NCBI GenBank assembly: GCA_023485685.1
Contig: JAMCZK010000038.1
Location: 1 to 64,000 of the forward strand
Length of the DNA stretch: 64,000 nucleotides
Direction: 5' to 3'
Origin: Chloroflexota bacterium
GTDB lineage: Bacteria > Chloroflexota > Anaerolineae > Anaerolineales > UBA11579
In this document: piece after piece, positions 4,822 through 32,890 of the stretch
How the letters are laid out: every line of letters begins with the position of its first letter
Numbering within the stretch: the stretch's first letter is position 1
Program-made: the position numbers and the translations under genes
Notes under the pieces: generated by a model
Database searches by the model: none
What the model saw: only the letters and a program-made list of their open reading frames with translations
Told to the model about the DNA's origin: nothing

Positions 4822-6051
4822 TTATTCTTCTAGTGAAACGACTGGTTTGTTGCCGCCCCCGTAGATTTGGTCGGGGTCGTAATTCAAGGCAAGCTCCCCA
4901 TTTCCGGTCACATTGAGTGTGTTGACAATCAGCTGGGCATTCAAGACCGTATTGGCGCCGTTTCCGGTTAAATTCCCCGTGGAAAGGGCCCCATAGATCG
5001 TTCCGGTGGTGCTGACCATTCCGTTGCCTGTGATTGAAATTGTGCTGACATTGGCCTGAGCCATAAACAGCATCATTCCCTGATAGTCGCCGGACGCTGG
5101 GGCGCTGATGTCGAAATTCCCATTTCCGCTAATGCTGAAATCACCATCTTCCATATAGATCATGACTTCATTTGCAGTTAAGCTCGCATTGCCCGAAACA
5201 CTGAAATTGCCGCCATCCACATAATAGATCCCCGGATTCAAGGTCAGAATTGCATTGCCCGACGCAGAGATCGAACAATACAATCCGGGATCGATGGTGG
5301 CTGAATTGTTCGAGCCGATGGAAAAAGAGGTGCAGCTTCCGCCGGGTTTGAGCGGCGCAGCCAGCCCGCTGAGGGGATCACCCAATGCCGGGGCGCCGGT
5401 GGTCGGCGTGGGATCGAAATCGGCATTCCCCGTGGTTCGCACCCCTCCCACAATGGAGATGGACGTAGCCGCGTTCACTTGCGCATTGCCGGTGGCGCAG
5501 GCGGCGCTGGTGAAATTGTTCGAGTCGACCTGGATACCGCCACCGTTCACCGTGATGCTGCCGTTGCCCGTGGCGTTGAATGCGCAGGAATTATCGCTGT
5601 CCAAAACGATGATGCCGTTATTCCCTCCGGGCGGGCCGCCGGCCCCGGAACAATGCCCTACAGCGCGCGCCGAAGCTTCAAGCAGACCTGGATAAATAAC
5701 TTGCGAAAAGGCCCCATCGACACTTGAAGTAATGATCACCTCAATAAATTCGTCATCGCCTGCCTTGGGGCCGGAAAGCGGCGGATGGTTTATTTCCACC
5801 GTATTGGTGGCGCCATCATTATTGAACCCGTTGTCGCCGGCGGAATCCAATGCCGCCGCATTGGGATCGGCGCCTAAACAGAGCGCCAGGGCAGCCGCCA
5901 GGGCAGAGTTATCCGCGCCGTTTTGGGTAGTGCGTCGCGCAGCGTACAGTCTGGTGCCATCCACTACAACCGCGGCAACCCCAAAGATGGCAATAAGCAA
6001 CAAGGCAATGATTATGATTACTTGCCCGTTTTCTTTCTTCCTGTAATTCAT
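4822..6051 (-). CDS. TadG-like (TadE/G N-terminal domain) protein with GNG-rich beta-repeat region
   Basis: GQVIIIIALLLIAIFGVAAVVVDGTRLYAARRTTQNGADNSALAAALAL N-terminus; repeated TGNGxxxx motifs. Confidence 0.8.
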   Translation of the reverse strand: MNYRKKENGQVIIIIALLLIAIFGVAAVVVDGTRLYAARRTTQNGADNSALAAALALCLGADPNAAALDSAGDNGFNNDGATNTVEINHPPLSGPKAGDDEFIEVIITSSVDGAFSQVIYPGLLEASARAVGHCSGAGGPPGGNNGIIVLDSDNSCAFNATGNGSITVNGGGIQVDSNNFTSAACATGNAQVNAATSISIVGGVRTTGNADFDPTPTTGAPALGDPLSGLAAPLKPGGSCTSFSIGSNNSATIDPGLYCSISASGNAILTLNPGIYYVDGGNFSVSGNASLTANEVMIYMEDGDFSISGNGNFDISAPASGDYQGMMLFMAQANVSTISITGNGMVSTTGTIYGALSTGNLTGNGANTVLNAQLIVNTLNVTGNGELALNYDPDQIYGGGNKPVVSLEE

Positions 6052-25924: not shown

Positions 25925-26221
25925 ATGCCGCGCCAAGGATTCTTCTACATTATGACCAACAAATACAACACAGTTCTATATTGTGGCGTGACCAATAACC
26001 TTGCGCGCAGAGTCGCGGAACACAAAGAGAAACCAGGCAATACGTTCGTTGGCCGATATTTATTGAACAAACTTGTCTATTACGAACTAACGGAACGCAT
26101 TATCGATGCAATAGAACGAGAAAAGCAGATTAAGGGCGGTTCGAGGCAAAAGAAGATCGACTTGATAAACAGCCTTAACCCTGCATGGAAAGACTTGTAT
26201 GATGAAGTCCTTGAGGATTAG
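25925..26221 (+). CDS. GIY-YIG domain endonuclease, stand-alone
   Basis: GFFYIMTNKYNTVLYCGVTNNLARRVAEHKEK...RYLLNKLVYYELTERIIDAIEREKQIKGGSRQKKIDLINSLNPAWKDLY. Confidence 0.93.
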   Translation: MPRQGFFYIMTNKYNTVLYCGVTNNLARRVAEHKEKPGNTFVGRYLLNKLVYYELTERIIDAIEREKQIKGGSRQKKIDLINSLNPAWKDLYDEVLED

Positions 26222-26301
26222 TAATCCGTGGTGGAGAGTGCTTCGCGGCGTCACGCCGCCTTCGGCGTCTTATCTGCTCGCAACGACGGGTTTGCTTTCA
26301 A

Positions 26302-26690
26302 CGTCATTGCGAGGAGGGCGTTTAGCGCCGCTTTTAACGGCGCTGCCCGAACGAAGCAATCTCCCGGCTGGATTCCAAGCAATGCAGGAGATTGCTTCGC
26401 GGCATCACGCCTTGCCTGACGGCAGGCTTACTGGCTCGCAATGACGAACTACACACCGAATCCGTCATTGCGAGGAGGGCGCCCAGCGCCGCCTTTAGCG
26501 GCGCTGCCTGAACGAAGCAATCTCCCGGCTGGATTCCAAGCAATGCAGGAGATTGCTTCGCGGCGTCACGCCGCCTCCGGCGTCTTACTGGCTCGCAATG
26601 ACGGGGTTGGGGTTGCTTCGTCGGGCTTGCTCCGCAAAGCCACTCCTCGCAACGGCGGAAAGCAAGCTTTCCTTGGCTCGCAATGACGGA
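26302..26690. repeat. cluster of long inverted/direct repeats, CGTCATTGCGAG family
   Basis: About 145-bp unit at 26302-26446 repeated at 26463-26605, plus partial copies to 26690. Confidence 0.88.
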
Positions 26691-26769: not shown

Positions 26770-28443
26770 ATGGTTGAGGAAATACAAGGCAGAAAGCAGA
26801 TCGGCTTCGTCGTCGGCGGCACACTGAAGGACGGCCTAACGGTCCGCTTGCAGGTGCCGGCGCAAGACGTGCAGGAAGGCGCGTTCGTGGTGATCGAGTC
26901 GAATGATTGGATCTTCCATGGCCTGGTCACCGACCTGCAGCTGGGCTCCACCGATCCGCGCTTCGCCGATGAGCAGTCCGGCACGCGGCTACCCGCCGAG
27001 CTCGCCAGCCTGCTCCAGGGCCAGACGCTGTTCACCAACCTGCAAGTCCTGCCGGCGCTGATGATCACCGGCGGCGATGACCCGCAGGGTCCGCTGCCGG
27101 TCAAGACCGTGCCGTCGCATCACGCGCCGGTCATGCTCGCCTCCGAGGGCGACATCGCCGAGATCTTCGGCAAGCCGGATGCCAAGGGCAACTTCGTCAT
27201 CGGCTCCACCCGCGAACAGGGGCACCCGGTGGCCATCGACCTGCGCAAATTCATCCAGCGCTCCTCCGGCATCTTCGGCGCCACCGGCACCGGCAAGAGC
27301 TTCCTCACCCGCCTGCTGCTGGCCGGCCTCATCCACCACAACGCCGCCTCCGTGTTGGTGCTGGACATGCACAACGAGTACGCCTACAACGACCAGGACG
27401 AGAACGGCAACCCGGTCACCGGCCTCAAGACCAAGTTCGGCAATAAGATCAAAGTCGTCGGCCTGGGCGCGGGCGCCGCCATCCGCGGCTCCGTCCCAGA
27501 CTTCAACCTGGAGATCGCCATGAGCGATATCCAGCCAGAAGACATCGAGCTGCTCACCCGCGAGCTCAACCTCAAGGAGACCACGCCGGCAACGCTGGAC
27601 GCGCTGATTGCTACTTTTGGGCGCCAGAACTGGTTCAAGCAATTCAAGGAGCTCAAGAACGGCGCGGTCATCCAAACCGACGAAGGCTCGCCAGGTAAAC
27701 CTGGCGCACGCGTCCCGGCGCCCGATTCCGTGGCCGCCTGGGCAGACGAGCACGGCGTCAACGTGATGGCGGCCGAGGGCCTGCACAACAAGCTGGGCCG
27801 CGTGTTCCGCCTGCCCTACGTCACCGAGCGCCCCGCCGCCGACACCATCGGCAACATCATCGACACGCTGGAGAAGGGCAGCCACGTGGTGCTCTCCTTT
27901 GGCAACCACGAGACCGACCTGGACTACTTGCTGGTGAGCAACCTGCTCACCCGCCGCATCCGCCAGCGCTGGGAGCAGGCCACCAACGACTATCGCAGCA
28001 GCAACAAAGCCGAGCCGCGCCCGCTGGTGATCGCCGTGGAGGAGGCGCACAAGCTGCTCAACCGCGAGATGGCGGTGCAGACCACCTTCAGCACCATTGC
28101 CCGCGAGCTGCGCAAGTATTACGTCACCCTGCTGATCATCGACCAGCGCCCCAGCCAGATCTACGACGAAGTGATGTCTCAATTAGGAACAAGAGTGTCA
28201 GGGTGGCTCGGTGATGAAGATGACATTCGAGCGGTACTCTCTGGACTCGCGGGGAGAGATGCACTCCGAGGAATGCTGGCCAGATTACAACCCAAAGAAG
28301 AAGTCCTCCTACTCGGCTGGGGCGTACCAATGCCGTTGCCGGTGCGGAGCAGAAGGTACGACGATAAGTTCTGGGAGGAGTTGCTGGGCAAAGGCGGCGG
28401 GAAGAAGAGGGAGAAGGAGATCAAGGAGGAGTTGGGTTTCTGA
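26770..28443 (+). CDS. herA: HerA-like ATPase (DUF87, FtsK/HerA superfamily)
   Basis: Walker A GIFGATGTGKSFLTRLLLAG; Walker B PLVIAVEEAHKLLNRE; LRKYYVTLLIIDQRPSQIYDEVMSQLGTRVSGWLGDEDDI. Confidence 0.92.
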   Translation: MVEEIQGRKQIGFVVGGTLKDGLTVRLQVPAQDVQEGAFVVIESNDWIFHGLVTDLQLGSTDPRFADEQSGTRLPAELASLLQGQTLFTNLQVLPALMITGGDDPQGPLPVKTVPSHHAPVMLASEGDIAEIFGKPDAKGNFVIGSTREQGHPVAIDLRKFIQRSSGIFGATGTGKSFLTRLLLAGLIHHNAASVLVLDMHNEYAYNDQDENGNPVTGLKTKFGNKIKVVGLGAGAAIRGSVPDFNLEIAMSDIQPEDIELLTRELNLKETTPATLDALIATFGRQNWFKQFKELKNGAVIQTDEGSPGKPGARVPAPDSVAAWADEHGVNVMAAEGLHNKLGRVFRLPYVTERPAADTIGNIIDTLEKGSHVVLSFGNHETDLDYLLVSNLLTRRIRQRWEQATNDYRSSNKAEPRPLVIAVEEAHKLLNREMAVQTTFSTIARELRKYYVTLLIIDQRPSQIYDEVMSQLGTRVSGWLGDEDDIRAVLSGLAGRDALRGMLARLQPKEEVLLLGWGVPMPLPVRSRRYDDKFWEELLGKGGGKKREKEIKEELGF

Positions 28444-28470
28444 GTTTCTGGTATAAAGAAATAAGAACAT

Positions 28471-29327
28471 ATGGTGAAAACAAAACTTTACCTGGGCGAT
28501 TGCGCTGATATCCTCAATCAGTTGAAGACAACTCAATTGATTTGATTTTTACCTCACCGCCCTATGCTGACAGCAGGAAAGACACGTACGGAGGAATTCA
28601 TCCCGACGAGTATGTAAATTGGTTCCTACCCATCACGAAAGAATTATTCCGCGTTCTAAAACCTACAGGAACTTTTGTATTAAACATCAAGGAACGTGTC
28701 GTTGAAAGTGAACGACATACTTATGTGATTGAACTTATTCTCAATATGCGGGAACAGGGTTGGCTCTGGACCGAAGAACTAATATGGCACAAGAAGAATA
28801 GTCATCCAGGAAAATGGCCGAACCGCTTTAGGGATGCCTGGGAACGGCTCCTTCAGTTTAACAAGGCGAAGCAATTCAATATGTACCAGGAAGAGGTTAT
28901 GGTTCCAGTTGGGAAATGGGCAACGACAAGACTAAAAAATCTTAGCAAAACTGATAAAGTTCGTGATCCCTCAAGGGTGGGAAGTGGTTTTGGTAAAAAC
29001 GTTTCCAATTGGGTCGGTCGCGAAATGGTTTATCCAACAAACGTCCTGCATATGGCAACCGAAACAGGAAATAAAAACCACAGTGCGGTATTTCCAGAGG
29101 CACTACCGGAATGGTTTATAAAACTCTTTACACGAGAGGGCGACTGGGTTTTAGACCCGTTTATGGGTTCGGGGACCACGAATAAAGTTGCCCAGAGAAT
29201 AGGCAGGAATTCAATTGGCATCGAAATCCTCTCCGAGTATTTCGATGTTGCAAAGAACCGAATTGACAAGAAACAGCTTATGCTATTTGAAAAGAAGGGG
29301 AAATATGAAACCAATCAAACTAAGTGA
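28471..29327 (+). pseudogene. beta-type N4-C/N6-A DNA methyltransferase with apparent N-terminal frameshift
   Basis: ATG at 28471 reads MVKTKLYLGDCADILNQLK then frame must change near 28520-28535 to continue SIDLIFTSPPYADS...WVLDPFMGSGTTNKVAQRIGRNSIGIEI. Confidence 0.85.
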
Positions 29328-30038
29328 AGTGTCGAATTATGTTCAAAAGAATATTGGTTCGTTTCACGCAAAGAGATTGCTGCGCCTAAACAGTCTCAAC
29401 TCAAGACAGTACTAAAAAGAAAAAATCCCTATTTATTTAAGGCGAAAAATCTGGGGGTGGCTCATGGTCTGGTAAAAGTCTTAGTTGACGCACATCTTTC
29501 ATCTCAGGAAGAAACAATTTTTGGCGATTTCCTAGAAGGCTTGGCTATTTTTATATCTAGTAAGGTATACGGTGGAAAGAAATCCGCTGCAGAGGGCATA
29601 GATTTAGAATTTTCTAGAGACGGGATTGTATACATCGTCGCAATTAAATCGGGTCCGAACTGGGGAAACAGTAGCCAGATTCGAAGAATGATTAATGACT
29701 TTAATTCTGCTACGAAAAGACTACATACGAGTCTGTCGACCCTCAATGTGAGGGCTGTTAATGGATGTTGTTACGGAATTGATAACAATCCTAATAAAGG
29801 CACTTATGAAAAATTTTGCGGGCAGGCGTTTTGGGAATTTATTTCTGGAAACCCAGAACTTTATCTAGACATCATTGAACCTTTAGGACATCGGGCCAAA
29901 CAAAAGAACGCTGCTTTTCAAAAGAGATATGACCAAATTTTAAATAGGTTCACTCAGGAATTTATCGAAGAATTTTGCGACGATGGAGTAATAAATTGGG
30001 AGAGACTTGTTAAATTCAACTCGAGTACAGTTCCTTAA
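29305..30038 (+). pseudogene. type II restriction endonuclease (possibly PmeII/EcoO109I-like) with apparent N-terminal frameshift
   Basis: MKPIKLSEVSNYVQKNIGSFHAKRL in one frame, then LKTVLKRKNPYLFKAKNLGVAHGLVKVLVDAHLSSQEETIFGDFLE... and catalytic-like GIDLEFSRDGIVYIVAIKSGPNWGNSSQ in another; overlaps MTase end. Confidence 0.72.
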
Positions 30039-30881: not shown

Positions 30882-31502
30882 TTATTTGTTTAATTCAGTA
30901 TAAAGGTCGCTAAAAAAAACGTCGGCGCCCCAAGCTTGAGCTGCAGTAAATGCTACACGGCGTTGTTGATCCTTTGTCAACGGATTCGCTGGCTTGTAAC
31001 CTAAATCATGATCAGCCAGCGCCCAGGCATGCTGAAACAAGGTTTTTACTTGCAACTCAAAAAACCTCGGACAATCATCACGATCTATTTCTTTATCAAA
31101 CACATCCTCGGGAATGAACAAAATAAAATGCAATCCCTCATAGCCAAATTCAGATGGCGTGTCAGGAACTATTGTTTTCTCTTCAATAGGACCAAAATAT
31201 TTCTTTACAAATTCCTGTAGTGGCTCAATATCAGACAAGTAATATGCAACAATGCGAGCCCCCAATTGATCTTGGATTTGATTCAGCGGATCAGAGTATT
31301 TAGGCTTTCCCTCTTCAATTTTTTTGGCTTTCTCTAAAAATGAATCTAGTGCCTTAGGTCTAGCCACCACTTTGTCAATCCTAGGTAACTTTTCATCAGT
31401 AACAAGATCGAGAAGGTAACTTTCAAGTCTTTTGGCAAGGGGAATGAGACATTTCTCCAGTCTTTGTTCATACGATTCTTGTAAATTTCTGCTTTTATTC
31501 AT
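30882..31502 (-). CDS. RelA/SpoT nucleotidyltransferase domain protein (small alarmone synthetase-like, no HD domain)
   Basis: ARPKALDSFLEKAKK, QIQDQLGARIVAYY, GYEGLHFIL, FFELQVKTLFQHAWALADHDLGYK. Confidence 0.88.
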   Translation of the reverse strand: MNKSRNLQESYEQRLEKCLIPLAKRLESYLLDLVTDEKLPRIDKVVARPKALDSFLEKAKKIEEGKPKYSDPLNQIQDQLGARIVAYYLSDIEPLQEFVKKYFGPIEEKTIVPDTPSEFGYEGLHFILFIPEDVFDKEIDRDDCPRFFELQVKTLFQHAWALADHDLGYKPANPLTKDQQRRVAFTAAQAWGADVFFSDLYTELNK

Positions 31503-32518
31503 TTACGACCCCTGACTCTTTCGTCAACAATTTTCCCTTCTGTTGCAAACCTGACCACACCTTCGTTTTCATTAATTGTAGTTTTCTCAAATACGTCCTC
31601 GAACTGGTCTGATGGCGCGATCATCATTGCGCCGGTATCTAATTCAACACTGGCGAACGACGCGTGTCTTCGAAATTCTTCTGCATCAATAGCAAATACA
31701 TCGCTTGCAGTTCTTTCCCCTGGCAATACCGAGAGAATAGATTCCCGAGCGTTTTGCGGCAGATTAAATCTTTGAAAAAGTTGATTTATAGAAAAGCGTT
31801 GACCATCTAAAGCCTGAACAAAACGGGCAAAGGCTACTAAATCGTGCTTGACGTCTTTATCTTGAGAAATACCACTAGCACTTCTGATTGCCCGTGCAAT
31901 GCGTCTAGTTCCTGCTTGAGCAGTTGTGAAAAAGTCGGATGCTAAAAAATCTTTTATCCAATAATAGGCTATTTGCTGATTAGATGCGTTTACTTGTTTA
32001 TCGGTCGCACTCCCATTCCAGAAATCTGCGTCAAGAGACCTGCCCAAATAAAGTGCAGCTTTATATGACTGGGCGTTCTTCATGAATATTCGCTCTAAGA
32101 AATCAATGCGCAACCCTCCCTTTTGGGCCTCAGCTAGAATTCCCACATCTGCGGGAAATCTTGATAAAACAAATTTTCTCTGTCCTGCCTCTTGCCCTAA
32201 GATAAGAAATAATAAGCCTAATCCGGACTTATTGGTAGTAACATCTCTTAGTCTGTGCGCTATAAATCTCCCTGCCCTAACACCAGGGCTTCGGAAATAA
32301 TTAATAAAATCAGCCCTCACTACACTATGTTGAATCGCTGGGTCTGTAGTTACAAATCTAATCGGGATTTCACATTCGACCTCAGATCCCTCATAAATCC
32401 CATTTAGCATTTCAAAAAGGTGGCCCCGAAGAGCTAGCATCACGCCTAACGCTTGGTCCGGATTCTCAACGTGTTTTCCTGGTGACACTAAGAAACTACA
32501 GATTGAATTAATCGCCAT
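31499..32518 (-). CDS. unknown 339-aa protein translationally coupled to RelA/SpoT-domain gene
   Basis: Stop/start overlap of 4 nt (31499-31502) with downstream gene; no recognised domain. Confidence 0.8.
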   Translation of the reverse strand: MAINSICSFLVSPGKHVENPDQALGVMLALRGHLFEMLNGIYEGSEVECEIPIRFVTTDPAIQHSVVRADFINYFRSPGVRAGRFIAHRLRDVTTNKSGLGLLFLILGQEAGQRKFVLSRFPADVGILAEAQKGGLRIDFLERIFMKNAQSYKAALYLGRSLDADFWNGSATDKQVNASNQQIAYYWIKDFLASDFFTTAQAGTRRIARAIRSASGISQDKDVKHDLVAFARFVQALDGQRFSINQLFQRFNLPQNARESILSVLPGERTASDVFAIDAEEFRRHASFASVELDTGAMMIAPSDQFEDVFEKTTINENEGVVRFATEGKIVDERVRGRK

Positions 32519-32890
32519 TCTTTCCTCTCCTACGGCTTAAATCACATTTCAAGTTTCGCTAAGTATTATAAAGCGTAGACAGTTCTGCGGCAACGTTCTT
32601 AATCTTAATCTTCTTTTGCTGCTGCTTTGCCCTTCACCGCCCACGCCCTCGCCACCAACCGCAGCCTGCCATCCGCTTCCAGCCGGCAGCCGCCTGCGCC
32701 CGGCTTCCCGTTCGGCAGCCGGCAACCGCTTGTTTCTCCGGCGGCAAAAGGAAGCAAGACACGAAAGCACCGGTCCCCCGCCGCCTTGAACGCTTGCCAG
32801 TAATCGTCGAAATCGCGGAAGGCAGATTTTCCAAGCGCGAGCTCCTGGGCATCACCCACGGACGCGTTGACAAGTCACCCGCCATGTGCT

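Follow-up and report, generated by a model that had tools for sequence, protein, structure and literature searches.

The two overlapping minus-strand genes at 30882-32518 of the window (the whole 64,000-nt stretch of Chloroflexota DNA analyzed here) are a real unit, in which a small RelA/SpoT-type synthetase (P0002) is preceded by a 339-aa partner protein (P0001), and the pair is a mobile, horizontally acquired cassette. By profile comparison and predicted fold, the partner is remotely homologous to the NA37/YejK family, lying outside its Pfam-defined membership. We consider the chances somewhat better than even that the pair is a self-contained mobile two-gene growth-arrest module, of an anti-phage abortive-infection or toxin-antitoxin-like kind, in which the NA37-like protein would restrain and trigger the synthetase.

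The gene pair and its synthetase

The features of the pair are as follows:

31499..32518, minus strand: P0001, first gene, encoding the 339-aa partner, a putative NA37/YejK-like protein (open reading frame)
30882..31502, minus strand: P0002, second gene, encoding a 206-aa small alarmone synthetase of the HD-less RelA/SpoT type (PF04607)
31499..31502, minus strand: ATGA overlap of the gene 1 stop and the gene 2 start, read from the sequence (putative translational coupling)
32565..32593, minus strand: candidate operon promoter TTGCCG-17-TATAAT (10/12 consensus match)

An earlier note on this DNA had described two AT-rich minus-strand genes with a 4-nt overlap, the second encoding a RelA/SpoT protein devoid of an HD domain, and this description holds throughout: the open reading frames confirm the positions, the strand, and the ATGA overlap; the G+C content is 0.39 for the P0002 gene and 0.43 for the P0001 gene against 0.55 for the window; and the only Pfam domain present in P0002 is RelA_SpoT (PF04607, residues 48-171, E 8.7e-13), the domain search returning no HD domain. 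Third-position G+C is about 0.34 in the pair versus 0.57-0.85 in the flanking HerA, MarR, and MFS genes. The promoter remains an unproven candidate, promoter-like sites being as numerous in the region as expected from shuffled sequence, and no Rfam element was found between positions 25 and 38 kb. The host assembly is 1.71 Mb long and 76% complete, with the window on contig 50.

P0002 resembles the housekeeping synthetases RelQ and RelP in fold and length. Its AlphaFold model (pLDDT 89, pTM 0.84) has Bacillus subtilis RelQ (5dec) as its best fold match (E 3.3e-11; TM 0.74 and E 4.5e-11 against chain B), whereas the match to CapRel is poorer (E 1e-8), and sequence profiles rank the two in the same order (RelQ 2e-13, CapRel 0.009). 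Both its sequence and its predicted fold thus place P0002 nearer to RelQ/RelP than to CapRel, and a place among the toxSAS, which the earlier note had brought up together with CapRel, would be tentative. The PADLOC model PDC-S33 also matches P0002, over the SYNTH domain only.

Within a 30-member family alignment, residues R48, K50, K58, D78, R83, Y121, H125, E149, and Q151 of P0002 are invariant. In the toxSAS enzyme FaRel2, R64, K66, K74, D90, and R95 hold ATP and Mg, and Y128 is the acceptor tyrosine (PMC11782079); by motif, these six residues correspond to R48, K50, K58, D78, R83, and Y121 of P0002. P0002 therefore shares with toxSAS enzymes a SYNTH domain whose catalytic and ATP-donor residues appear intact by sequence and predicted fold, and because the FaRel2-equivalent donor and acceptor residues are invariant in all 30 members, it is expected to be an active pyrophosphotransferase. 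The P0002 family differs from RelQ/RelP in its G-loop (GYxGxH instead of GYRSYH), in a C-terminal last helix carrying an invariant AQAWGAD segment, which we propose may be a partner or oligomer contact, in its near-obligate gene partner, and in its patchy mobile distribution.

The partner protein and the NA37/YejK family

The earlier note recognized no domain in the 339-aa protein, and indeed no Pfam, NCBIfam, PADLOC, or PHROG model matches P0001, nor does any sequence among those of the PDB; relatives do exist, however. A tblastn search of plasmids with P0001 retrieved close relatives (37-38% identity) on Rhizobium and Agrobacterium plasmids, together with one distant Streptomyces protein that is annotated as nucleoid-associated, matches Pfam NA37 with E 7.2e-14, and aligns colinearly with P0001 (27% over 234 aa). 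The alignment of the 30-member P0001 family with a 5-member NA37 alignment by hhalign gave a probability of 97.3% (E 2.1e-11, 238 columns). Residues A87, L90, G101, Y152, K153, D173, F191, T204, and A301 are invariant across the P0001 family and all five NA37 proteins, and the positions of P0001 listed as shared with NA37 proteins are A87, L90, G101, YK152-153, D173/Q175, F191-L192, T204, and A301. The AlphaFold model of P0001 (pLDDT 83, pTM 0.63) has a single significant fold match in the PDB by Foldseek, namely Escherichia coli YejK (9be2, E 1.1e-7, prob 1.00), covering 353 alignment columns and approximately the full length of both chains, at ~10% identity and a TM of only 0.41, from which we conclude that the placement of the domains differs between the two proteins. 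The profile-profile match, the shared invariant residues, and the sole PDB fold match together support a remote homology, although P0001 does not reach the gathering score of Pfam NA37 (PF04245), with no match at E 1 for P0001 itself and none at E 10 for four close homologues.

The likeness of P0001 to E. coli YejK and Streptococcus pneumoniae StaR, both of the NA37 family, therefore consists of a whole-length fold match and shared residues; in contrast to these, P0001 lies below Pfam detection, has another predicted domain arrangement, adjoins a synthetase gene, and is mobile rather than core. YejK and StaR are nucleoid-associated chromosome-topology factors that modulate topoisomerases, not antitoxins (PMC10053502). 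The computed net charge of P0001 is near zero, which speaks neither for nor against an association with DNA or the nucleoid.

The partner also sets the pair apart from described toxSAS systems such as FaRel2-ATfaRel2 and CapRel-SJ46. These resemble the window pair in combining an HD-less RelA/SpoT synthetase with a partner, in being mobile, and in the catalytic residues discussed above, and the window partner gene comes first and overlaps the next, as in many toxin-antitoxin operons. Known toxSAS antitoxins, however, are small pseudo-zinc-finger, Tis1-like, Panacea, or hydrolase proteins, and P0001, being NA37/YejK-like by profile and predicted fold, falls in none of these families. No published description joining toxSAS or small alarmone synthetases with NA37/YejK was found in open papers.

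Coupling, mobility, and genomic context

A genome scan seeded with the synthetase alone retrieved 36 loci, spanning Alphaproteobacteria, Desulfobacterota, Acidobacteria, Phycisphaerae, Eremiobacterota, and unassigned bacteria, with homologues at related loci being 35-55% identical to the window proteins. The partner lies directly upstream on the same strand in 34 of the 36 loci (truncated in some by contig ends or damage), and the two loci devoid of it carry broken synthetases, one with an internal stop (L034) and the other truncated beside an IS3-type transposase (L043). The coupling suspected earlier is thus conserved across genomes, both genes keeping their order, and synthetase homologues do not normally stand alone; a stable arrangement with a partner gene is also what characterizes toxSAS. 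In the reverse direction, five of six close partner homologues on plasmids directly precede a synthetase gene, the sixth having one ~1 kb away across the record start. The 4-nt overlap recurs in 28 of 40 related loci, the remaining spacings ranging from -26 to +4 nt, and the distances between partners correlate with those between synthetases (Mantel r 0.80, 0/2000 permutations), which indicates that the two travel together. A third conserved gene was sought around loci of the window subfamily and none was found, the immediate neighbors varying from locus to locus; among the Rhizobium-type loci alone, a ~200-aa gene recurs downstream. Searches of genome and viral contigs with P0001 alone gave no matches because the conserved stretches differ, and the synthetase alignment was used instead. 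Weak phylum-level P0001 matches (L003-L005, E ~1e-4) were discarded; no adjacent synthetase was apparent among the listed open reading frames, and the matching frame in L005 looks spurious.

The synthetase is absent from all 100 relatives of the host genome that were searched, ten congeners included. Elsewhere the pair is carried on conjugative plasmids, where it lies beside Hachiman (HamB E < 1e-240, DUF1837) and DarT in L007, beside TIR and ImmA/IrrE genes in L006, and beside AbiJ-NTD4 in L009. On a phage contig (L051, 851-12359), it sits, moron-like, with the portal gene on one side and the capsid-protease and major-head genes on the other; this position in the head-gene cluster often hosts accessory "moron" genes, including superinfection-defense genes. 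Neighbors around 18 chromosomal or contig loci include integrases (4), resolvases (3), HTH_3 genes (4), and methylases, whereas no recombinase occurs among families with at least two members in 18 control regions. The excess of defense genes in these loci over the controls is suggestive, but a large share of it comes from methylases and from UvrA-like false matches to mad3, and the PADLOC neighbor tally was set aside as an enrichment statistic, being too redundant for a claim. The context evidence therefore resides in conjugative plasmids with other defense genes, in the phage head-gene cluster, and in the lack of a third conserved gene, not in the proximity of the pair to a restriction-modification (RM) system.

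That proximity had been taken earlier as a clue that the 339-aa protein may be a sensor or antitoxin. The RM genes are real (N4/N6 methylase, E 1.1e-45; EcoO109I-type nuclease, E 1.5e-64), but a congener locus (L101) carries HerA, methylase, and EcoO109I together without the pair, so that the RM site belongs to the host lineage and we reject the idea of a single island comprising RM system and pair. What survives of the proposed defense or toxin-antitoxin-like system is a coupled, conserved, mobile module for which such a role is plausible, with no support from the RM neighbors. In the window, the three genes occupy 26770-30038, in the order HerA-like ATPase, N4/N6 methylase (with an uncertain TTG start), and EcoO109I-type nuclease. 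At 26199-26686, the peptide LRGGRxAPxLxALPERSNLPAGFQAMQEIASR recurs in two short open reading frames, which points to a DNA repeat, dispersed or tandem, on the downstream side of a GIY-YIG gene (25925-26221).

Damaged copies bear on how dangerous the synthetase may be. In L041, a type III Mod fragment has taken the place of partner residues 1-128, in frame, and in L035 partner residues 1-224 have been lost to a transposon that may also have cut the promoter; the synthetase is intact in both, which suggests that the enzyme has no obvious lethal effect when its partner is incomplete. Either the C-terminal half of the partner suffices for restraint, or the enzyme does no harm before it is activated, or, in L035, it is no longer expressed. 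The L041 chimera (4907-6013) joins an apparent type III Mod methylase N terminus to partner residues 129-339, upstream of the intact synthetase. Lone synthetases occur on two phage contigs, beside a terminase (L052) and near a helicase (L053), both frameshifted or cut short. In Desulfospira joergensenii, the pair occurs twice, on separate contigs (L014 and L015) and with equal match scores, which suggests a recent transposition or duplication.

The tolerance of truncated partners weighs against a simple addiction or maintenance cassette serving plasmids and prophages, in which P0001 would be an antitoxin only, stabilizing the element with no phage sensing. Such a cassette would fit the partner-first order, the overlap, and the conjugative plasmids and phages among the carriers, but a folded 339-aa NA37-like protein is far larger than known toxSAS antitoxins and many copies of the pair are chromosomal or on large contigs, so that we regard this explanation as unlikely. 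Less probable still is a regulatory module in which the NA37-like protein would tether a (p)ppGpp-producing enzyme to the nucleoid or topoisomerases and tune replication or transcription of the host or the element; although YejK and StaR have the matching properties (PMC10053502) and the synthetase is RelQ-like, the patchy horizontal distribution (0/100 relatives), the changing neighbors, and the pseudogenized copies are unlike a regulatory core function.

Proposed function and a second lineage

The growth-arrest module that we favor can be outlined as follows. P0002 would be a pyrophosphotransferase with ATP as donor that, once unleashed, would halt growth by producing an alarmone, either (p)ppGpp or (p)ppApp, or by pyrophosphorylating tRNA, and would thereby shield the cell or the mobile element from phages. 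P0001, made first and translationally coupled, would bind and restrain P0002 and double as a sensor, and the restraint would be lifted by a phage product or by a change in DNA or topoisomerase state. The latter is a natural idea because members of the NA37 family associate with the nucleoid and act on topoisomerases (PMC10053502), but direct sensing of a phage protein by P0001 would be just as conceivable. toxSAS modules are phage-defense effectors (PMC9712102, PMC11782079), and the partner-first order, the overlap, the co-inheritance, and the defense company of the pair argue for a restrained enzyme that is released by a trigger, like CapRel (PMC9712102) and FaRel2 (PMC11782079); binding between P0001 and P0002, restraint, triggering, product, and protection are inferred. 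Against this reading, P0002 most resembles the non-toxic RelQ/RelP, and YejK and StaR are topology factors; the intact synthetases beside shortened partners in L041 and L035 and the mixed make-up of the neighboring defense genes also count against it.

NA37 and RelA/SpoT are also paired in a second, separate lineage, and this recurrence lends support to the NA37 assignment of P0001. With the Streptomyces NA37 protein as the query, all three plasmid matches (its own record, Klebsiella, and Ochrobactrum) directly precede a ~330-aa RelA/SpoT gene, and in E. coli this second lineage is found as two sequence types in 4 of 5426 genomes, at tRNA-Thr/proA islands. The short and long synthetase families are homologous (hhalign, 99.4%). 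The long-lineage pairs of E. coli, Klebsiella, Ochrobactrum, and Streptomyces thus combine the same two families in the same order as the window pair, with a 4-nt overlap in Klebsiella and Ochrobactrum, but differ from it in a synthetase with an extra C-terminal part, in a Pfam-recognized NA37 protein, and, in enterics, in an extra membrane gene.

This extra gene, encoding a two-helix DUF4231/SLATT-type membrane protein directly upstream of NA37 and RelA/SpoT in E. coli and Klebsiella, brings in a signal-making system, in which the NA37-like protein would sense an invader and activate the synthetase, the product being a second messenger for a separate effector in the manner of CBASS; the SLATT-like protein would fill this role in enterics. 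According to a published prediction, SLATT is a nucleotide-responsive pore effector (PMC7159879), and the RelQ-like active site of P0002 would also suit such a role. The Ochrobactrum pair, however, has no SLATT gene upstream and the window subfamily has no conserved third gene, although an effector may lie elsewhere in the genome, and we hold this explanation to be rather unlikely. The three-gene modules (L062, 9528-12078; L063, 7145-9719; L056, 6096-8659), carried by the E. coli tRNA-Thr/proA island and a Klebsiella IncFIB plasmid, carry no annotation beyond "nucleoid-associated protein" and "GTP pyrophosphokinase."

More broadly, we tentatively raise the possibility that an NA37/YejK-type protein serves as the sensor of a widespread immune module, watching the nucleoid, topoisomerases, or phage DNA and directly gating a pyrophosphotransferase of the alarmone family. 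The short RelQ-like and the long RelA/SpoT lineages would then be variants of one undescribed defense type across many phyla. The NA37/YejK family has so far been known for chromosome-topology factors, and the sensors described so far for toxic alarmone-family synthetases are small antitoxin domains; a YejK/NA37 partner would tie nucleoid or DNA state to growth arrest and would provide the accessory "nucleoid-associated protein" genes of plasmids and islands, which carry housekeeping annotations, with a function that can be tested. It may also explain the defensive score of a YejK-domain gene in E. coli, in which both lineages can be tested. The DefensePredictor study newly validated a YejK-domain system as anti-phage in E. 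coli, with no partner named in its main text (PMC13092281); as far as that main text allows comparison, the likeness to the window pair is the YejK-type domain. If this system is the E. coli NA37 and RelA/SpoT island, the long lineage would already be protective and the window pair would be a short, unrecognized variant of it.

In Neisseria gonorrhoeae, two unannotated stretches (NZ_CP119142.1:1051942-1052508 and NZ_CP119140.1:1054214-1054780) align with the long RelA/SpoT protein over its residues 127-311 (32.8% identity) and are possibly a remnant of the second lineage.
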